A stretch of 64,000 nucleotides of DNA from NCBI RefSeq assembly GCF_016124105.1, contig NZ_JADGMQ010000008.1, positions 1 to 64,000 of the forward strand, given 5' to 3'. Positions 8,065 to 61,038 of the stretch are shown here, piece after piece. The position numbers and the translations under genes are program-made. Below the pieces are notes generated by a model. The model saw only the letters and a program-made list of their open reading frames with translations, ran no database searches and had not been told where the DNA came from. The stretch's first letter is position 1. Every line of letters begins with the position of its first letter. This DNA is from Aquamicrobium zhengzhouense (GTDB lineage: Bacteria > Pseudomonadota > Alphaproteobacteria > Rhizobiales > Rhizobiaceae).

Positions 8065-8090
8065 GGAACCCAGCGGAGGTGATGTGCGTT
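8065..8090 (+). promoter_or_regulatory. candidate EcfG promoter upstream of the 8115 gene
   Basis: GGAAC at 8065-8069 and CGTT at 8087-8090 are separated by 17 bases, which fits the alphaproteobacterial EcfG consensus. Initiation about seven bases downstream would exclude the ATG at 8082 and supports 8115 as the start codon. Confidence 0.5.
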
Positions 8091-23199: not shown

Positions 23200-23224
23200 A
23201 ACGCCGACCTCCCGATGAGGTTCC
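23200..23224 (-). promoter_or_regulatory. EcfG promoter of the PRC-barrel gene
   Basis: On the minus strand GGAAC (23224-23220) and CGTT (23203-23200) with a 16-base spacer, an exact match to the EcfG consensus. It diverges from the lipid kinase promoter. Confidence 0.75.
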
Positions 23225-23254: not shown

Positions 23255-23279
23255 GGAACGAAACCATCATGCTCACGTT
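23255..23279 (+). promoter_or_regulatory. EcfG promoter of the lipid kinase gene
   Basis: GGAAC (23255-23259) and CGTT (23276-23279) with a 16-base spacer. The start codon follows only nine bases after CGTT, so the mRNA would have almost no leader. Confidence 0.75.
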
Positions 23280-25280: not shown

Positions 25281-25305
25281 AACGCACTGGTGAAGTCGGG
25301 GTTCC
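25281..25305 (-). promoter_or_regulatory. EcfG promoter of the DUF883 operon
   Basis: On the minus strand GGAAC (25305-25301), a 16-base spacer and CGTT (25284-25281), giving a 5' leader of about 25 bases to the ATG at 25247. Confidence 0.75.
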
Positions 25306-25449: not shown

Positions 25450-25845
25450 TTGATAAACAATTCGCTGGATGGTTTGCGCATCCTCGTTCTGGAAGACGAG
25501 ATGCTCATTGCAATGGACGTGGAAGACATGTGCCGGCAAAGCGGAGCTGAACACGTCACCATCGCTCGTAGTTTTGATCAGGCTACCGAACGCCAGATGG
25601 ATTACGACGCTGCCGTCATTGACGTCATGATTGAAGGCCGGCCGACCTTCGATTTCGCCCACCTGTTGCGCCAGAACGGCATCCCGTTCGTTTTTGCTAC
25701 CGGGCACGCGGATGACCGCCAGATGTTCGCCGATTTTCCTGGCGTTCCGGTTGTGGCCAAGCCGTATTCAGGAAACGCGGTCGTCACCGCCCTGAAAACG
25801 GTTCTGGAGCCTGATGGGGCGCTTACGCCGCGCTCGTCCCCATGA
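25450..25845 (+). CDS. single-domain response regulator
   Basis: A 131-aa stand-alone receiver domain. The acidic pair is in LVLEDEML, the phospho-acceptor Asp in AAVIDVMIEG and the Lys in VVAKPYSG. I chose the TTG at 25450 because GGAGGG lies six bases upstream and the protein then begins just before the receiver. An ATG at 25384 has no SD. Such receivers near phyR can act as phosphate sinks or feed the stress phosphorelay. Its 3' end overlaps the convergent ecfG by 23 bases. Confidence 0.75.
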   Translation: MINNSLDGLRILVLEDEMLIAMDVEDMCRQSGAEHVTIARSFDQATERQMDYDAAVIDVMIEGRPTFDFAHLLRQNGIPFVFATGHADDRQMFADFPGVPVVAKPYSGNAVVTALKTVLEPDGALTPRSSP

Positions 25846-26386
25846 CCTGGGATGAAATCGCGTCCGGGCCATAATCAGCTTCGCCCACCACGCCCAGCAT
25901 CTCCTGAAGCCTGCTGCGGGCACGGCTTACCCGGCTCTTGATCGTACCGACGGCGACGCCGCAGATTGTGGCGGCTTCCTCGTACGAAAAGCCAGAGGCG
26001 CCTATCAGGATGATCGCTTCACGCTGGTCCTCCGGCAGCTTTTCAAGCGCTGAACGAAAATCGCCGAGATCGAGCGAACCGTGCTGGCTGGGATGCACTG
26101 CCATTCGCTCGGTCATGATGCCGTCGCTGTCCTGTACCTCGCGGCCACGCTTGCGCATCTGCGAATAGAATTCGTTGCGCAAAATCGTGAACACCCACGC
26201 CTTGAGATTGGTGCCCGGCTGGAACGAACTTTGCTTGTCCCACGCCTTTACAAGGGTCTCTTGTACGAGGTCGTCGGCTTTATCGGCGTTTTGAGAGAGT
26301 GACATGGCGAACGCCCGAAGATTCGGGATGCAGCCAAGTAACCCGGTCTTGAAGCTGGAGCCGTCGCCGGCAATGGCCTGAGTCAT
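25823..26386 (-). CDS. ecfG: ECF sigma factor EcfG (general stress response)
   Basis: A 187-aa ECF15 sigma factor: region 2 with NADKADDLVQETLVKAW and region 4 with LPEDQREAIILIGASGFSYEEAA followed by the helix-turn-helix GTIKSRVSRARSRL. It directs transcription from GGAAC-N16-CGTT promoters when NepR is captured by phosphorylated PhyR. It starts two bases after the nepR stop and shares its promoter, which is itself EcfG-type (autoregulation). Confidence 0.95.
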   Translation of the reverse strand: MTQAIAGDGSSFKTGLLGCIPNLRAFAMSLSQNADKADDLVQETLVKAWDKQSSFQPGTNLKAWVFTILRNEFYSQMRKRGREVQDSDGIMTERMAVHPSQHGSLDLGDFRSALEKLPEDQREAIILIGASGFSYEEAATICGVAVGTIKSRVSRARSRLQEMLGVVGEADYGPDAISSQVMGTSAA

Positions 26387-26388
26387 GA

Positions 26389-26595
26389 CTATTCTCCGTC
26401 GCGAGCCGACTGCGGCTGAGAGCGTTCATCCAGTTGACGCAGAAGATCTGCGAAACGATCAGGAACTTCCTCGGAGACTAGATCATCATAATACTGCTTG
26501 AGCTTGCGTCCGATTTCGGAATTGGGCCCGAGCGGATCGCCCTTCTTTGCAGGTTGATTGCGGCCTTCATCGGCCGCCAAGGTGTTGGATTTCAT
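26389..26595 (-). CDS. nepR: anti-sigma factor NepR
   Basis: A 68-aa protein with the NepR core: GPNSEIGRKLKQYYDDL, then VPDRFADLLRQLDE. It binds EcfG in unstressed cells and is taken away by PhyR~P. It is cotranscribed with ecfG. Its leader contains AGGGGGGC on the minus strand (26616-26609), able to pair seven G-C bases with the loop of the candidate small RNA at 29.1 kb. The SD is weak (AAGAA). Confidence 0.92.
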   Translation of the reverse strand: MKSNTLAADEGRNQPAKKGDPLGPNSEIGRKLKQYYDDLVSEEVPDRFADLLRQLDERSQPQSARDGE

Positions 26596-26691
26596 ACAGG
26601 TTCTTTATGCCCCCCTAGCTCGATTTTCCTTCACCCGTCCCAACGCGATGTGCCATAGGACACGCTTTTCCCGAGACGGGTTTGCGCAGGA

Positions 26692-26809: not shown

Positions 26810-27601
26810 ATGAGCCTTTCAGCACGAATTGCGCCGCATCTACCGTATCTGAGGCGTTTTTCGCGCGCCGTGACAGGCTCTCAATCGAGTGGTGATACAT
26901 TGGTCGCCGCGACGCTTGAGGCCATCATTGCAGACGTGAGCGTCTTTCCAGAGCTCACCAGCGATCGCATTTCATTATACCGCATTTTCACAAAGCTCTT
27001 TTCGTCCGTGAATGTGCGAGTTCCCGAGGACAATTCTCAGGCCGGCTGGGAGGGACGCGCATCCGCAAATCTCGCCGCGCTGTCGCCACTGCCCCGCCAA
27101 GCATTCCTGCTCGTGGCCGTAGAAGGATTCTCGGAGAGCGAAGCTGCCGAAGTTCTTGACGTCGACGGGGCTGAGTTTGCGTCCTTGCTTGCTGAAGCAA
27201 GCGAAGAAATCTCGCGACAGGTCGCTACCGACATTATGATCATCGAGGATGAGCCTCTGATCGCGATGGACATCGAAGAGATGGTTGAGAGCCTGGGACA
27301 CCGGGTGGTGGGAACGGCGCGTACTCATAAGGAAGCCGTTGCCATGTTCTCGACTGCCCGTCCGAAAATGGTTCTTGCGGATATTCAACTGGCTGACGGG
27401 TCGTCGGGCATCGACGCCGTTAATGAGATGCTTGCTGTCTCACCCGTACCGGTCATTTTCATCACGGCCTTCCCCGAGAGACTGCTGACTGGCGAACGTC
27501 CTGAGCCTGCTTTCCTTGTTACGAAGCCCTTTAATCCAGACATGGTCAAAGCGCTCATCAGCCAAGCCCTGTTCTTTGATCGGCAGGCCGCAGCAGCCTA
27601 A
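26810..27601 (+). CDS. phyR: anti-anti-sigma response regulator PhyR
   Basis: A 263-aa regulator with an N-terminal sigma-like domain (about 1-135, including PRQAFLLVAVEGFSESEAAEVL, which mimics EcfG region 4) and a C-terminal receiver with phospho-acceptor D191 and conserved Lys in TKPF. When phosphorylated, the sigma-like domain binds NepR and frees EcfG. GGGAG lies before the ATG at 26810, whereas the frame open to 26558 crosses both promoters and is rejected. Confidence 0.95.
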   Translation: MSLSARIAPHLPYLRRFSRAVTGSQSSGDTLVAATLEAIIADVSVFPELTSDRISLYRIFTKLFSSVNVRVPEDNSQAGWEGRASANLAALSPLPRQAFLLVAVEGFSESEAAEVLDVDGAEFASLLAEASEEISRQVATDIMIIEDEPLIAMDIEEMVESLGHRVVGTARTHKEAVAMFSTARPKMVLADIQLADGSSGIDAVNEMLAVSPVPVIFITAFPERLLTGERPEPAFLVTKPFNPDMVKALISQALFFDRQAAAA

Positions 27602-27662: not shown

Positions 27663-27687
27663 GGAACCAACGCCGAACGGCCGCGTT
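27663..27687 (+). promoter_or_regulatory. EcfG promoter of the DUF1328 gene
   Basis: GGAAC (27663-27667), 16-base spacer, CGTT (27684-27687), 28 bases before the ATG at 27715. Confidence 0.75.
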
Positions 27688-27714: not shown

Positions 27715-27882
27715 ATGCTCTACTGGACATTGGTATTTTTTGTCGTGGCCATCATCGCCGGCGCGCTGGGCTTTGGCGGGATTGCCGGCGCTTCCGCGGG
27801 GATCGCGCAGATCCTGTTCTTCATCTTCTTGGTCTTCTTGGTCATATCACTGATCGCCGGCCTGATGCGCCGTGCAGGATAG
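27715..27882 (+). CDS. DUF1328 small membrane protein (YtjA-like)
   Basis: A 55-aa two-helix membrane protein: [20 protein letters not shown], then [20 protein letters not shown]. This is the DUF1328/YtjA family, often induced by stress. AAGGAGAT precedes the ATG. Its own EcfG promoter places it in the PhyR regulon. Molecular function is unknown. Confidence 0.85.
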
Positions 27883-28062: not shown

Positions 28063-29025
28063 GTGGAAGTAAGACGCGGTCTACTGCGTGCTCTGCGCAA
28101 CACGGGAATTATTGTCATCTACCAGACACCGGACCTTCGCGTTCGGTGGGCGCAGAATATTCCCGAAAAATGGTCGAGCGGAGACGTTTCCGGGCGCAGC
28201 GACGGCGAGTTTATGCCGGCGCTGGTTGCTGAGCGCGCTCTTGAGTTGAAACGATCCGTCCTCGCCACAGGTATCCAAGAGACGATGGAGTTTCGCGACC
28301 GCAACGCGGTAGGTGCGCGGTGGTACGACATGTGGATCGATGCGGACCGCGACGACGAGAACCTCATTCAGGGCGTTGTCACCACCATTGTTGACGTCAC
28401 CGAACGAAAGAACCGCGAACAGACCCTTCAGACCCTGTTGCGGGAGGTGAGCCATCGCTCCAAGAACCTTCTGGCCATCATCCAGGCGATCGCATCACAG
28501 ACAGGGCGATATTCCAGCGGTATCGAGATGTTTCTGGATCGCTTTCGCGGCCGTCTCCAGTCACTCGCATCGTCGCAGGATCTGGTGACATCCTCCAACT
28601 GGCGCGGCGCGATGTTGAGCGAACTGGTAGAGGGGCAGGTGGACCGCTTCCTCAACGGCTCAGGGACGGAGGTCCGCTTTCAAGGTCCCGATGTCTATCT
28701 GAACCCGAACGCTGCCCTCCATATCGGGCTTGCTTTACACGAACTCGTGGTAAATTCGCTCAGCCATGGGGCGCTTTCGCGGCCGAATGGCGATGTCGTG
28801 TTGACCAGTGAAATCAATCAGACGGCAGTAGACGGGACACCGTCACTCGTCATCCAGTGGCGTGAGAGTACAGACGCCCGCGACATGCATTCCGAACCAC
28901 GGTTCGGCAGCGTAGCGCTTGAGCGCGTCGTGCCGATGTCCCTCGATGGAAGAGCCAAACTGGAAGTCGGCGAAAACCGTCTCGACTATCGACTGGAAGT
29001 TCCAGGCGGCAACTTCGAGAGCTGA
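28063..29025 (+). CDS. PAS-HWE family sensor histidine kinase (PhyK-like)
   Basis: A 320-aa soluble kinase: a PAS domain at about 12-115 and an HWE/HisKA_2 domain with phospho-His H131 in REVSHRSKNLLAII. The ATPase has the N box HELVVNSLSHGAL. HWE kinases next to phyR are the usual PhyR kinases. GTG at 28063 is the only in-frame start after a stop at 28039. The final G box of the ATPase domain is poorly conserved. Confidence 0.85.
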   Translation: MEVRRGLLRALRNTGIIVIYQTPDLRVRWAQNIPEKWSSGDVSGRSDGEFMPALVAERALELKRSVLATGIQETMEFRDRNAVGARWYDMWIDADRDDENLIQGVVTTIVDVTERKNREQTLQTLLREVSHRSKNLLAIIQAIASQTGRYSSGIEMFLDRFRGRLQSLASSQDLVTSSNWRGAMLSELVEGQVDRFLNGSGTEVRFQGPDVYLNPNAALHIGLALHELVVNSLSHGALSRPNGDVVLTSEINQTAVDGTPSLVIQWRESTDARDMHSEPRFGSVALERVVPMSLDGRAKLEVGENRLDYRLEVPGGNFES

Positions 29026-29053
29026 GTTGACATAGCCGCTCACTGCTCCTTCG

Positions 29054-29191
29054 AAAAACGCAGTTTTCGCTCGCGCGACCCTCGTCGTTGCGAGCTTTTT
29101 CAGATCTGATTGTTCGGGATGTTGACAATCCCGCTACGTGCCATTTGGGGGGGCGTTCAGAGGGGGCTTAGCACGTAGCGGGACCGTCTGC
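29054..29191 (-). ncRNA. candidate EcfG-dependent small RNA (GsrN-like)
   Basis: No gene lies on either strand here, yet a perfect EcfG promoter at 29198-29222 fires into it. The predicted RNA of about 140 nt starts with a 13-bp perfect hairpin (29171-29183 with 29129-29141). Its 29-base loop carries CCCCC and CCCCCCC runs. A second stem GCTCGC/GCGAGC (29095-29090 with 29074-29069) and a T5 run at 29058-29054 could terminate it. A sigma-T-dependent RNA with a C-rich target loop, GsrN, is known from Caulobacter, and the layout here is alike. Homology by sequence was not tested. Confidence 0.5.
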
Positions 29192-29197
29192 TCAATA

Positions 29198-29222
29198 AAC
29201 GCGGGGCCCCGGAACTGGTTCC
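29198..29222 (-). promoter_or_regulatory. EcfG promoter of the candidate small RNA
   Basis: On the minus strand GGAAC (29222-29218), 16-base spacer, CGTT (29201-29198). No protein-coding gene follows it before the convergent kinase end at 29025. Confidence 0.7.
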
Positions 29223-29299
29223 ACACTTACGTATCTTTTTTGACGCAAGGCCGGGGCGAGTGTAGCATCGCAGTGGAACGACATTCGGTGAGGATGGCG

Positions 29300-29452
29300 A
29301 TGAGTTTTCAAATGCATCACATTCACCGCGCGGCCCGTCTGGCAATGGCCGATCACCGGGCCGGTGCTACTCGCGAGGCTACCACCAAAGCGCGCTGGCA
29401 AATGTTGCGCAGCTTTTTCACCAAGCTGATCCGAGCGTTTCAACGAGCTTGA
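29300..29452 (+). CDS. possible small basic protein
   Basis: A 50-aa frame starting MSFQMHHIHRAARLAM with GAGG six bases before the ATG at 29300. It is rich in Arg, Ala and His, with a C-terminal amphipathic stretch FFTKLIRAFQRA. It is not recognised. It lies between the small RNA and the aroK region, and its stop lies within the convergent membrane-protein gene. It could be a stress-island small protein or chance. Confidence 0.35.
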   Translation: MSFQMHHIHRAARLAMADHRAGATREATTKARWQMLRSFFTKLIRAFQRA

Positions 29453-29589
29453 TTTAACCGCTCCGCCGGGATCCGCACTGTCATCTCTCCCTTATTGGGT
29501 TCCACATAAAGGACCACGGCGTACATCGCGCCGTAGATAAGCGCGGCGAGTACAGCCAGGGTCGTAAGGAACCGGAAAAGAGTGGGCAT
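29440..29589 (-). CDS. conserved rhizobial small membrane protein near aroK
   Basis: A 49-aa protein beginning MPTLFRFLTT with one membrane helix (about 8-28) and the periplasmic tail VEPNKGEMTVRIPAERL. I recall near-identical proteins next to aroK in other Rhizobiales. The function is unknown. No good SD is visible. Residues upstream in the open frame (to 29655) are not conserved. It diverges from aroK. Confidence 0.7.
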   Translation of the reverse strand: MPTLFRFLTTLAVLAALIYGAMYAVVLYVEPNKGEMTVRIPAERLNQAR

Positions 29590-38365: not shown

Positions 38366-38964
38366 CAGCGCTGGAACTCCTGGAATGCTGCGGAGACAGT
38401 CTCGACCCCAGTCTTAGAGGCCGCCATCCGGCTGGAAAAGGAGTAGCGTTCGCCGGAGGCGAGCGCCACCTGGTTTGTCCCCAAATAATAATTCGTCATG
38501 ACCCCGTAATTTGATCTCACCACGATCTCCAATATTGGCAAAGTCCGGACTGCCGATCCGCGGTTCTCGACTTGTCCTTCAAGGAAAAGCACATCTCGTC
38601 CGCTATGCTTTTCGAAGCGGCTGCTGATCCCGTCGAGGCTTAGCCCTACCTGCTTGCCGGCTGCAGCCTTAACAAGCGCACGGCCACCGGAACTCCAGAA
38701 GGCCAAGACGACAAGGCAGATACCAATCAGCCAGAAGAGAAGCGTCTTGGTTCGTCCTTCTAATGCTGCCTTATCTCCGGGCCTCAGAAAGCCGAGCCCT
38801 TCGGTCGCAAAAACGGGAGATATCCTCGAGGGTTCCTGCGAAGGCGTAGGGCACTGTTCAAACTCTGCGTCGACGGCATCCGACCCATTGCGGATGAAGG
38901 TTGTGCGTGTGCGGGCGTCGGTCATGATTTCGCCGGAAACCGGGCGTGGTTTGTCGTTGCTCAT
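38365..38964 (-). CDS. membrane-anchored hypothetical protein upstream of hpt
   Basis: A 199-aa protein with a polar N-terminus, one transmembrane helix at about 73-90 (TLLFWLIGICLVVLAFW) and a C-terminal domain of about 100 residues (EGQVENRGSAVRTLPILEI) that looks like the extracytoplasmic beta-sandwich of the MJ0042/zinc-ribbon proteins usually found beside ftsE. The zinc-ribbon cysteines are absent here. ATG at 38964 is used; residue 14 is an alternative start. Confidence 0.7.
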   Translation of the reverse strand: MSNDKPRPVSGEIMTDARTRTTFIRNGSDAVDAEFEQCPTPSQEPSRISPVFATEGLGFLRPGDKAALEGRTKTLLFWLIGICLVVLAFWSSGGRALVKAAAGKQVGLSLDGISSRFEKHSGRDVLFLEGQVENRGSAVRTLPILEIVVRSNYGVMTNYYLGTNQVALASGERYSFSSRMAASKTGVETVSAAFQEFQR

Positions 38965-46034: not shown

Positions 46035-46123
46035 TGCTATTGTCCAGTTGGATAGGTGTGCTTGCCTCTATCAAGTCTTTGGCGTTGACGCAAAGGTTCG
46101 GCGTACCTAAATATGCCGCGTTC

Positions 46124-46176
46124 CGTGGTGATTTGGCCGGTCGGCTTGCAGCCACGTAAAATAAGTTGCTAAATGA
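46124..46176 (+). promoter_or_regulatory. SAM-II riboswitch of metA
   Basis: CGTGGTGATTTG, a loop with GGCTTGCAGCCACG and then AAGTTGCTAAATGA match the metA-motif (SAM-II) consensus in order and spacing, including the pseudoknot partner. It is followed by a terminator and then metA, so SAM should switch the gene off. Confidence 0.92.
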
Positions 46177-46199
46177 CCGATCGCAGCAACTCCGTTGGG

Positions 46200-47172: not shown

Positions 47173-47206
47173 CCTGCAGCCTTTCCGAGTTGTCCAGGCA
47201 GGAACC

Positions 47207-47252
47207 CCTTCAATGAAATGGCGTTTCGGTACGACGCGCCTTTCATTGAAGG
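47207..47252 (+). promoter_or_regulatory. hairpin enclosing the glsA ribosome-binding site
   Basis: CCTTCAATGAAA (47207-47218) pairs perfectly with TTTCATTGAAGG (47241-47252), and GGCG/CGCC extend the stem inward. The 3' arm holds GAAGG, the only SD of glsA (ATG at 47259). With no T run, it looks more like translational control than termination. Confidence 0.65.
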
Positions 47253-60135: not shown

Positions 60136-60246
60136 TCCAGATTCAGGCAGTTGAACGAAGCCCAACCGGGTCGTGGCGCCTAACCCGATCTTTACGGATT
60201 AGCTGCGAGGGTCAGTTTGGGGGGCTGGCGCGAGGAGGTGCGAAAA

Positions 60247-61038
60247 TTGTTATCACGCTTTCGAGGCGTTTCGCCCCGAGCCTGGCGCCGGGTCGTGATG
60301 TGGACGATCCTTGGTCCACTCGTTTGTGTGGCAATTTGCCAGATCTTCATCTGGTTCACCTTCCCCCACCTCGCTCCTGAAGATTTTCGCAAAGTTGCCA
60401 TAACGGCCACGATCTTGCCGACTGTCATCGCTGCGCCTCTATTCTTTATGCACTCGCTCAAACTGCGTGAACTCGCGATCGCAAATCACAAGCTGAATGA
60501 TCTCGCATCGCTCGACGGGCTGACCGGATGCCTGAACCGCCGGAGCTTCCAGTCGACCGTTGAGGACTGGCTTCGCAGGACATCGCAAGGGGCCTTCCTG
60601 ATCATCGATGCCGACAACTTCAAGTCGATCAACGATACGTATGGGCATGAGAGGGGCGATGAGGCCCTGCGCGTGATCGCGGGTGCGGTCAGCGCCTCGA
60701 TGCGGCAGGAGGATTTGTGCGGCCGTATCGGTGGTGAAGAGTTCGGGGTCTATCTGCCCAACGTGCAGATCCCTGTCGCGACCGAGGTGGCCGAGCGGTT
60801 GCGCGCGGCAGTATCGGATGCGCCATTTGCGCCGTACCACGACGACGACTATCGCAATCTTTCGGTTAGTGTCGGCTGCGCGGTTCACAGCCGGGCGACG
60901 AGCTATGCGGAGCTTTTCTCAGCCGCCGACGAGCAGCTTTACGTCGCCAAGGAGCTTGGTCGTGACCGTGTGCGGCTCGCTGTGATCGACCCCGCTGTCG
61001 AGGCGCAACTGCAGGGTCGAAGGCGAGCGGCGAACTGA
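60247..61038 (+). CDS. membrane-anchored diguanylate cyclase (GGDEF)
   Basis: A 263-aa protein with two helices (about 16-38, 50-70) and a GGDEF domain making cyclic di-GMP. The active-site loop is RIGGEEFGVY (GGEEF, an active variant), with LDGLTGCLNRRSF at the start of the domain. No inhibitory RxxD is visible five residues before it. I choose the TTG at 60247 because AGGAGG lies eight bases upstream; the frame opens to 60217. Confidence 0.87.
   Translation: MLSRFRGVSPRAWRRVVMWTILGPLVCVAICQIFIWFTFPHLAPEDFRKVAITATILPTVIAAPLFFMHSLKLRELAIANHKLNDLASLDGLTGCLNRRSFQSTVEDWLRRTSQGAFLIIDADNFKSINDTYGHERGDEALRVIAGAVSASMRQEDLCGRIGGEEFGVYLPNVQIPVATEVAERLRAAVSDAPFAPYHDDDYRNLSVSVGCAVHSRATSYAELFSAADEQLYVAKELGRDRVRLAVIDPAVEAQLQGRRRAAN

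Follow-up and report, generated by a model that had tools for sequence, protein, structure and literature searches.

The window analysed here, a 64,000-nucleotide stretch of DNA from Aquamicrobium zhengzhouense, lies on one contig of a 4.07 Mb genome assembly that is 99.98% complete. It holds a complete general-stress locus comprising ecfG, nepR, phyR, a DUF1328 gene and an HWE kinase gene, with a predicted small RNA gene at the locus end (Table 1). The alphaproteobacterial general stress response is known chiefly as a protein partner switch. Exact EcfG boxes precede nepR, phyR, the DUF1328 gene and the kinase gene; another, placed behind the kinase gene on the other strand, precedes the RNA. 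The window contains 11 exact GGAAC-N15-17-CGTT boxes versus 1.75 expected, a count reached in none of 100 shuffles, and five of the 11 fall within 26.69-29.22 kb. Further exact boxes lie beyond the core locus at 8065-8090 (+), 23200-23224 (-), 23255-23279 (+), 25281-25305 (-), 38812-38836 (-) and 47201-47225 (+). An open reading frame of 50 residues (29300-29452, +) starts divergently from the RNA, with a degenerate box ahead of it and no Pfam match for residues 2-50. At five other loci (L005, L006, L007, L010 and L011), the EcfG box of the RNA has a second exact box back to back with it, followed by a short ORF that looks similar by eye.

Table 1. Features of the general-stress locus and of the predicted small RNA gene within the window.
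Feature	Position	Strand	Basis or remark
ecfG sigma factor, directly behind nepR	25823-26386	-	PF08281, PF04542, PF22029
nepR anti-sigma factor	26389-26595	-	PF18557
GGGGGGC tract in nepR leader, complement of loop core; candidate target	26609-26615	-	Leader reading
phyR	26810-27601	+	PF22029, PF22233, PF00072
DUF1328 small membrane protein	27715-27882	+	PF07043; EcfG box upstream at 27663
HWE histidine kinase with PAS domain, convergent neighbour of the RNA	28063-29025	+	Pfam PF07536, PF08448
Small RNA (predicted), about 138 nt with the T5 run as its end	29054-29191	-	Promoter position and sequence; end uncertain
Second stem	29069-29095	both	Plus strand: kinase-gene terminator, T5 29096-29100; minus strand: weak end signal, T5 29058-29054
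Conserved hairpin, 18-bp stem and 29-nt loop	29124-29188	-	Folding, covariation
C-rich loop, core CGCCCCC, presumed target-pairing site	29142-29170	-	Sequence; CGCCCCC in 16/18 aligned members
EcfG-type promoter GGAAC-N16-CGTT	29198-29222	-	Exact box; GGAAC 29222-29218, CGTT 29201-29198

Judged from the position of this promoter, the RNA would start about 7 nt past CGTT, near 29191, and lead almost at once into a hairpin. The stem arms (29188-29171 and 29141-29124) span 18 positions, of which 89% are Watson-Crick, with 29 nt between them; the innermost 13 pairs are perfect, and all 18 pair once two G-U pairs are counted. The exposed, cytosine-rich loop lies near the predicted 5' end and carries C5 and C7, the latter being the sole CCCCCCC on either strand of the 64-kb window, where shuffles give about eight. 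Folding yielded z = -4.1 for 161 nt and z = -6.1 for the 80 nt past the box, with none of 200 shuffles equally stable in either case. These results bear out the first-pass annotation, which had described a perfect minus-strand EcfG promoter, a perfect 13-bp stem enclosing a 29-base loop with CCCCC and CCCCCCC, and some 140 bases without a gene: the box is exact, the stem extends to 18 bp, and the interval 29054-29222 is covered by mechanical ORFs only. The 4227 Rfam models gave three matches in the window at gathering score and none at the RNA interval, nor was there any match with E up to 5 in 28900-29500.

The 3' end of the predicted transcript is less well defined. A second stem followed by a T5 run had also been proposed, and both elements are present, but on the minus strand ten other bases separate them, and the stem is a good terminator on the kinase strand only. 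A terminator scan of 28950-29350 returned two sites, both on the plus strand and serving the kinase gene, and neither of two rules detected a canonical minus-strand terminator in the window copy. With the second rule, the other seven genus members each have one minus-strand site, 112-132 nt past the predicted start. The second stem was not alignable with G001, a close relative within the genus.

Promoter and hairpin recur throughout the genus. When the locus was found via the kinase gene, all eight genus genomes carried GGAAC-N16-CGTT on the opposite strand followed by a C-loop hairpin, so that promoter and stem, whose loss in close relatives had been named beforehand as grounds for abandoning the annotation, are both retained. 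The box is exact with N16 in each, its spacers have mostly diverged, and the C run in the loop varies from 5 to 11. The 80 nt past the box gave a negative z in 14 of 14 loci (-1.3 to -6.1), all of which had been selected for the presence of a box together with C runs. G001 retains an island of 59-62 nt at the hairpin that is 91-93% identical and is the only BLAST-alignable stretch from the kinase gene to the small ORF; the EcfG box is kept there with a different spacer. A plain DNA similarity search of 120 genomes matched two, the source genome and G001, and an exact loop pattern allowing up to two mismatches matched only the source genome among 151, a draw in which G007 was the only other genus member. 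The stems have little sequence in common, save between the close pairs window-G001 and G004-G002, and still pair.

This pattern was quantified in two alignments. Six rows with hand-placed arms, which exclude the irregular stems of genus rows G005 and G006 and also G023, removed following a gapped trial, showed pairing in 92.2% of 90 stem cells; 14 of the 15 pairs carry changes in both arms. In 18 model-aligned rows, those of 39 loci with E up to 0.0052 in an alignment fitted to the structure, 93.0% of 227 stem cells pair and all 15 pairs have changed on both sides. (L040-L044 stand for the genomes of L004, L005, L011, L008 and L010 in this set, and a second L005 match, with E 0.0034 at a phyR promoter, was left out.) The covariation score of these rows was 0.728 versus 0.188, and none of 500 shuffles reached either the pairing or the covariation value; sliding the partners gave 31 to 46% pairing, and 24 of the 500 shuffles attained the count of two-sided changes taken by itself. 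CGCCCCC follows the stem start in 16 of the 18 rows and AAUCGCCCCC in 8. The compensatory stem changes and fixed C-rich loop that had been proposed as a check on the annotation are both found.

Conservation of this kind also bears on two other accounts of the hairpin. Since it starts about 100 nt past the kinase stop, near a good plus-strand terminator (29069-29100), it might belong to the kinase mRNA as a 3' structure or terminator, with no independent RNA involved. We regard this as very improbable: the kinase terminator is a separate hairpin, the minus-strand EcfG box points into the conserved hairpin in every genus genome, and the stem wobbles, read on the minus strand to which the alignment was fitted, comprise 24 G-U versus 8 A-C cells and suit that strand. 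Moreover, an RNA at the same place in Rhizobium etli, ReC64, has a mapped start and length according to its published description. A chance hairpin or decayed element, as the window copy without a canonical terminator might suggest, is scarcely credible against the covariation and conservation of the hairpin.

The association between hairpin and promoter is specific. Among 30 kinase loci, 18 exact boxes are found behind the kinase on the opposite strand, and 12 of these are followed by a C-loop hairpin, versus 2 of 63 other boxes (Fisher p 2e-8). Both exceptions are further copies of the RNA, one of them (L009) misplaced in the sorting since the wrong ORF was taken as the kinase and the other (L022) having its box on the kinase strand. 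The RNA is thus not universal, because by rule only 12 of the 30 loci, or 14 with L009 and L022, carry it opposite the kinase. The RNA of the stress locus forms two or three C-rich-loop hairpins at L024, L025, L026, L060 and L070, which come from other genera.

A model built from the six rows gave 24 matches in 22 of 297 family genomes. Fourteen of these are the RNA hairpin beside the kinase or phyR, with neighbour genes taken within 1.5 kb: five genus matches together with L045-L048, L051, L058 and L060-L062. Filters for many-genome searches are stricter and lose weak matches, and G023, G016 and G010, which have the RNA by eye, were missed at this level. A second model, trained on such matches, detected 28 of 297 order genomes, the source genome included, and 7 of the 27 other matches (L067, L068, L070, L071, L075, L076 and L079) adjoin a kinase, phyR or response regulator gene. 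At class level the second model matched 7 of 289 genomes including the source; the six matches outside the order are weak, and only L092 has box, stem and a C6 loop. By rule, a C run of at least 5 is enclosed in 17 of 24 family and 15 of 27 order matches, counts that reflect in part a model which itself rewards such loops. Some model matches were rejected as 5' leaders of small ORFs (L050, L052, L053, L054 and L055), of which L054 and L055 lie inside the stress locus, yet in a DUF1328 leader. In L050, L052 and L053 an EcfG box, a GC-rich hairpin and a ribosome site precede an ORF starting ATGATCCGC, a recurrent structured 5' leader of probable stress genes.

The closest known RNA is ReC64, judged by its published description. 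It lies downstream of the phyR-locus kinase gene of R. etli, depends on an EcfG1-dependent promoter, is seen in stationary phase and measures 88 nt, with a start mapped by 5' RACE that fits its EcfG box (PMC2881028, PMC3892343). The RNA predicted here shares its place and its EcfG-type promoter and would be longer, at about 138 nt.

Comparison with Caulobacter GsrN draws on passages of the 2018 eLife study, whose first author is reportedly Tien. In these passages the stress sigma factor drives synthesis of GsrN, which uses a C-rich loop to pair with G-rich sites on mRNAs and increases KatG (PMC5869019). On the basis of promoter, place and C-rich loop, RNAs from species including R. etli, S. 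meliloti and B. abortus are grouped with it there, and its BLASTn relatives are said to end at Caulobacteraceae (PMC5869019). GsrN of Caulobacteraceae is further characterised by activation of katG by way of the katG leader, by cleavage to a stable 5' isoform and by Hfq stabilisation of the full-length RNA. The predicted RNA resembles GsrN and these Rhizobiales counterparts, as so described, in its general-stress sigma promoter, its C-rich-loop hairpin and a place that is usually beside the stress locus, although gsrN of C. crescentus is distal to that locus and the RNA here lies within it. From the GsrN target sites given in those passages (UCGGGGGGCG and others), we infer a CGCCCCCC core common to both loops. 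Because box and C-rich-loop hairpin occur in all eight genus genomes and the stem covaries, the GsrN-like design put forward by the first-pass annotation is upheld. The data support placing the RNA among the EcfG-dependent C-loop RNAs of the general-stress locus, a likeness of design that does not imply descent from GsrN.

PmaR of Agrobacterium offers a further parallel. Passages of the mBio 2018 report (PMC6234868) depict a spoon-like molecule in which a long stem carries a single-stranded C-rich loop that pairs with targets and is required; it peaks in stationary phase, is encoded between two hypothetical genes, and has a reported occurrence limited to Agrobacterium and a single Rhizobium strain. 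Long stem and C-rich loop are shared with the RNA here, and, as a difference, those passages mention no EcfG promoter. By its anatomy, the RNA of Aquamicrobium should work like GsrN and PmaR. Six matches from other genera (L049, L056, L057, L064, L066 and L073) have an EcfG-like box, a C-loop stem and a terminator-like hairpin with no stress-locus protein within 1.5 kb, and in L049, L056 and L057 none of ten window proteins lies within that distance; these six may be paralogues or PmaR-like RNAs. Several RpoE2-dependent sRNAs are also described in S. meliloti, according to excerpts of two papers (PMC6180224, PMC3616915). The literature located by our search contains no description of such an RNA for Aquamicrobium, in keeping with the earlier statement that none was known; the kind is nevertheless not undescribed, because ReC64 and the eLife 2018 predictions precede. 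The same literature yielded no mention of the covariation evidence, a search model, the missing katG or the conserved nepR tract.

The resemblance to GsrN invites the stronger proposition of a true orthologue whose main job, as in Caulobacter, is raising KatG. EcfG promoter, C-rich 5' loop and stress-locus place do match the criteria given in passages of the eLife 2018 study (PMC5869019), and a G5 tract occurs upstream of katG in two of the six katG-bearing relatives (L097, GGGGGAG; L102, GGGGGCG). We nonetheless consider the proposition highly improbable. TIGR00198, the KatG family, has no match with E up to 1e-50 in the source genome or in G007, whereas six of the eight genus genomes match, and visual inspection of the stretches upstream of katG in those six showed no G-tract at a common position (the L101 stretch stops short of the katG start). 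Since this genome has no KatG match at that threshold, the RNA can hardly act through katG; the proven target of GsrN, as published, found no match here, and katG was rejected as a target in this organism, where it seems excluded unless a catalase-peroxidase has escaped recognition.

The nepR leader is the alternative that can be named. GGGGG(G)C lies 11-14 nt upstream of the nepR start in all seven genus genomes that could be read (G005 was not covered). The phyR and DUF1328 leaders of the genus have ordinary GGAG-type sites, and kinase leaders hold G4 to G6 in six of eight genomes, the start not being placed in the other two. GGGGGC occurs at 2.4e-4 per base, or about 0.7% per 30-nt leader; no joint probability is given for the seven nepR tracts because the seven genomes are related. 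Beyond the genus, many nepR leaders hold just GGGC (30 loci read, two of them from the genus; 90 genomes matched), which a ribosome-binding site alone could explain. The nepR mRNA of Caulobacter is among the RNAs recovered together with GsrN, its predicted pairing being at GGGGGGCG; the same passages report that a sigma-T-dependent reporter did not respond to GsrN and that no feedback on the sigma factor was found (PMC5869019). We tentatively name nepR-ecfG mRNA as the most likely conserved target of the predicted RNA.

As to targets alone, the chances are about even that the targets of the RNA are numerous weak G-rich sites, among which nepR is nothing special. Passages of the eLife 2018 study list 67 GsrN-enriched genes or regions with 32 predicted pairings through the C-rich loop (PMC5869019), and by loop-leader duplex energy nepR ranks just 8th of 69 window entries, the kinase being entered twice. 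A perfect 10-nt complement of the loop, TTTGGGGGGC, stands at 60216-60225 (+) in the leader of a GGDEF-like protein (60238-61038, domain assigned by eye), a presumed diguanylate cyclase. This 10-mer has seven genome sites, that one in a leader, versus none for the reversed pattern. The diguanylate cyclase tract is missing in the three relatives read, one of which has GGGG there, and was rejected as a conserved target, whereas the nepR tract is kept in seven of seven. Another 10-mer loop complement, GGGGGGCGTT, was also rejected: its ten genome sites include the RNA gene itself and none clearly in a leader.

Overall, we consider it very probable that the locus encodes a trans-acting, EcfG-driven small RNA of the general stress response that acts through its C-rich loop. 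Promoter, conserved place, covarying stem and fixed loop are present in the DNA; transcription, pairing and outcome would follow a scheme in which stress frees EcfG from NepR, EcfG uses the RNA's own promoter to transcribe it convergently with the kinase gene, and a rigid stem presents the C-rich loop for pairing with G-rich tracts in mRNA leaders. Given GGGGG(G)C in the nepR-ecfG leader throughout the readable genus, the sigma/anti-sigma pair that controls the RNA may in turn be tuned by it. Post-transcriptional feedback of this sort on the master switch, in which pairing between the C-loop and the leader shifts the anti-sigma:sigma ratio, is a speculative extension that we consider less likely than not. 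On that reading the pairing would be old, because Caulobacter nepR mRNA co-purifies with GsrN and has the predicted site in the published passages, and stem letters would be free to change because only the loop matters. A widespread RNA of the stress locus, unlisted in Rfam and marked by a covarying stem and fixed C-loop, provides a searchable and testable model for many Hyphomicrobiales. The apparent absence of katG parts it from the one proven target of GsrN, and the nepR leader offers a concrete alternative. Elsewhere in the window, a SAM-alpha riboswitch lies at 46115-46192 (+) with 70.2 bits.
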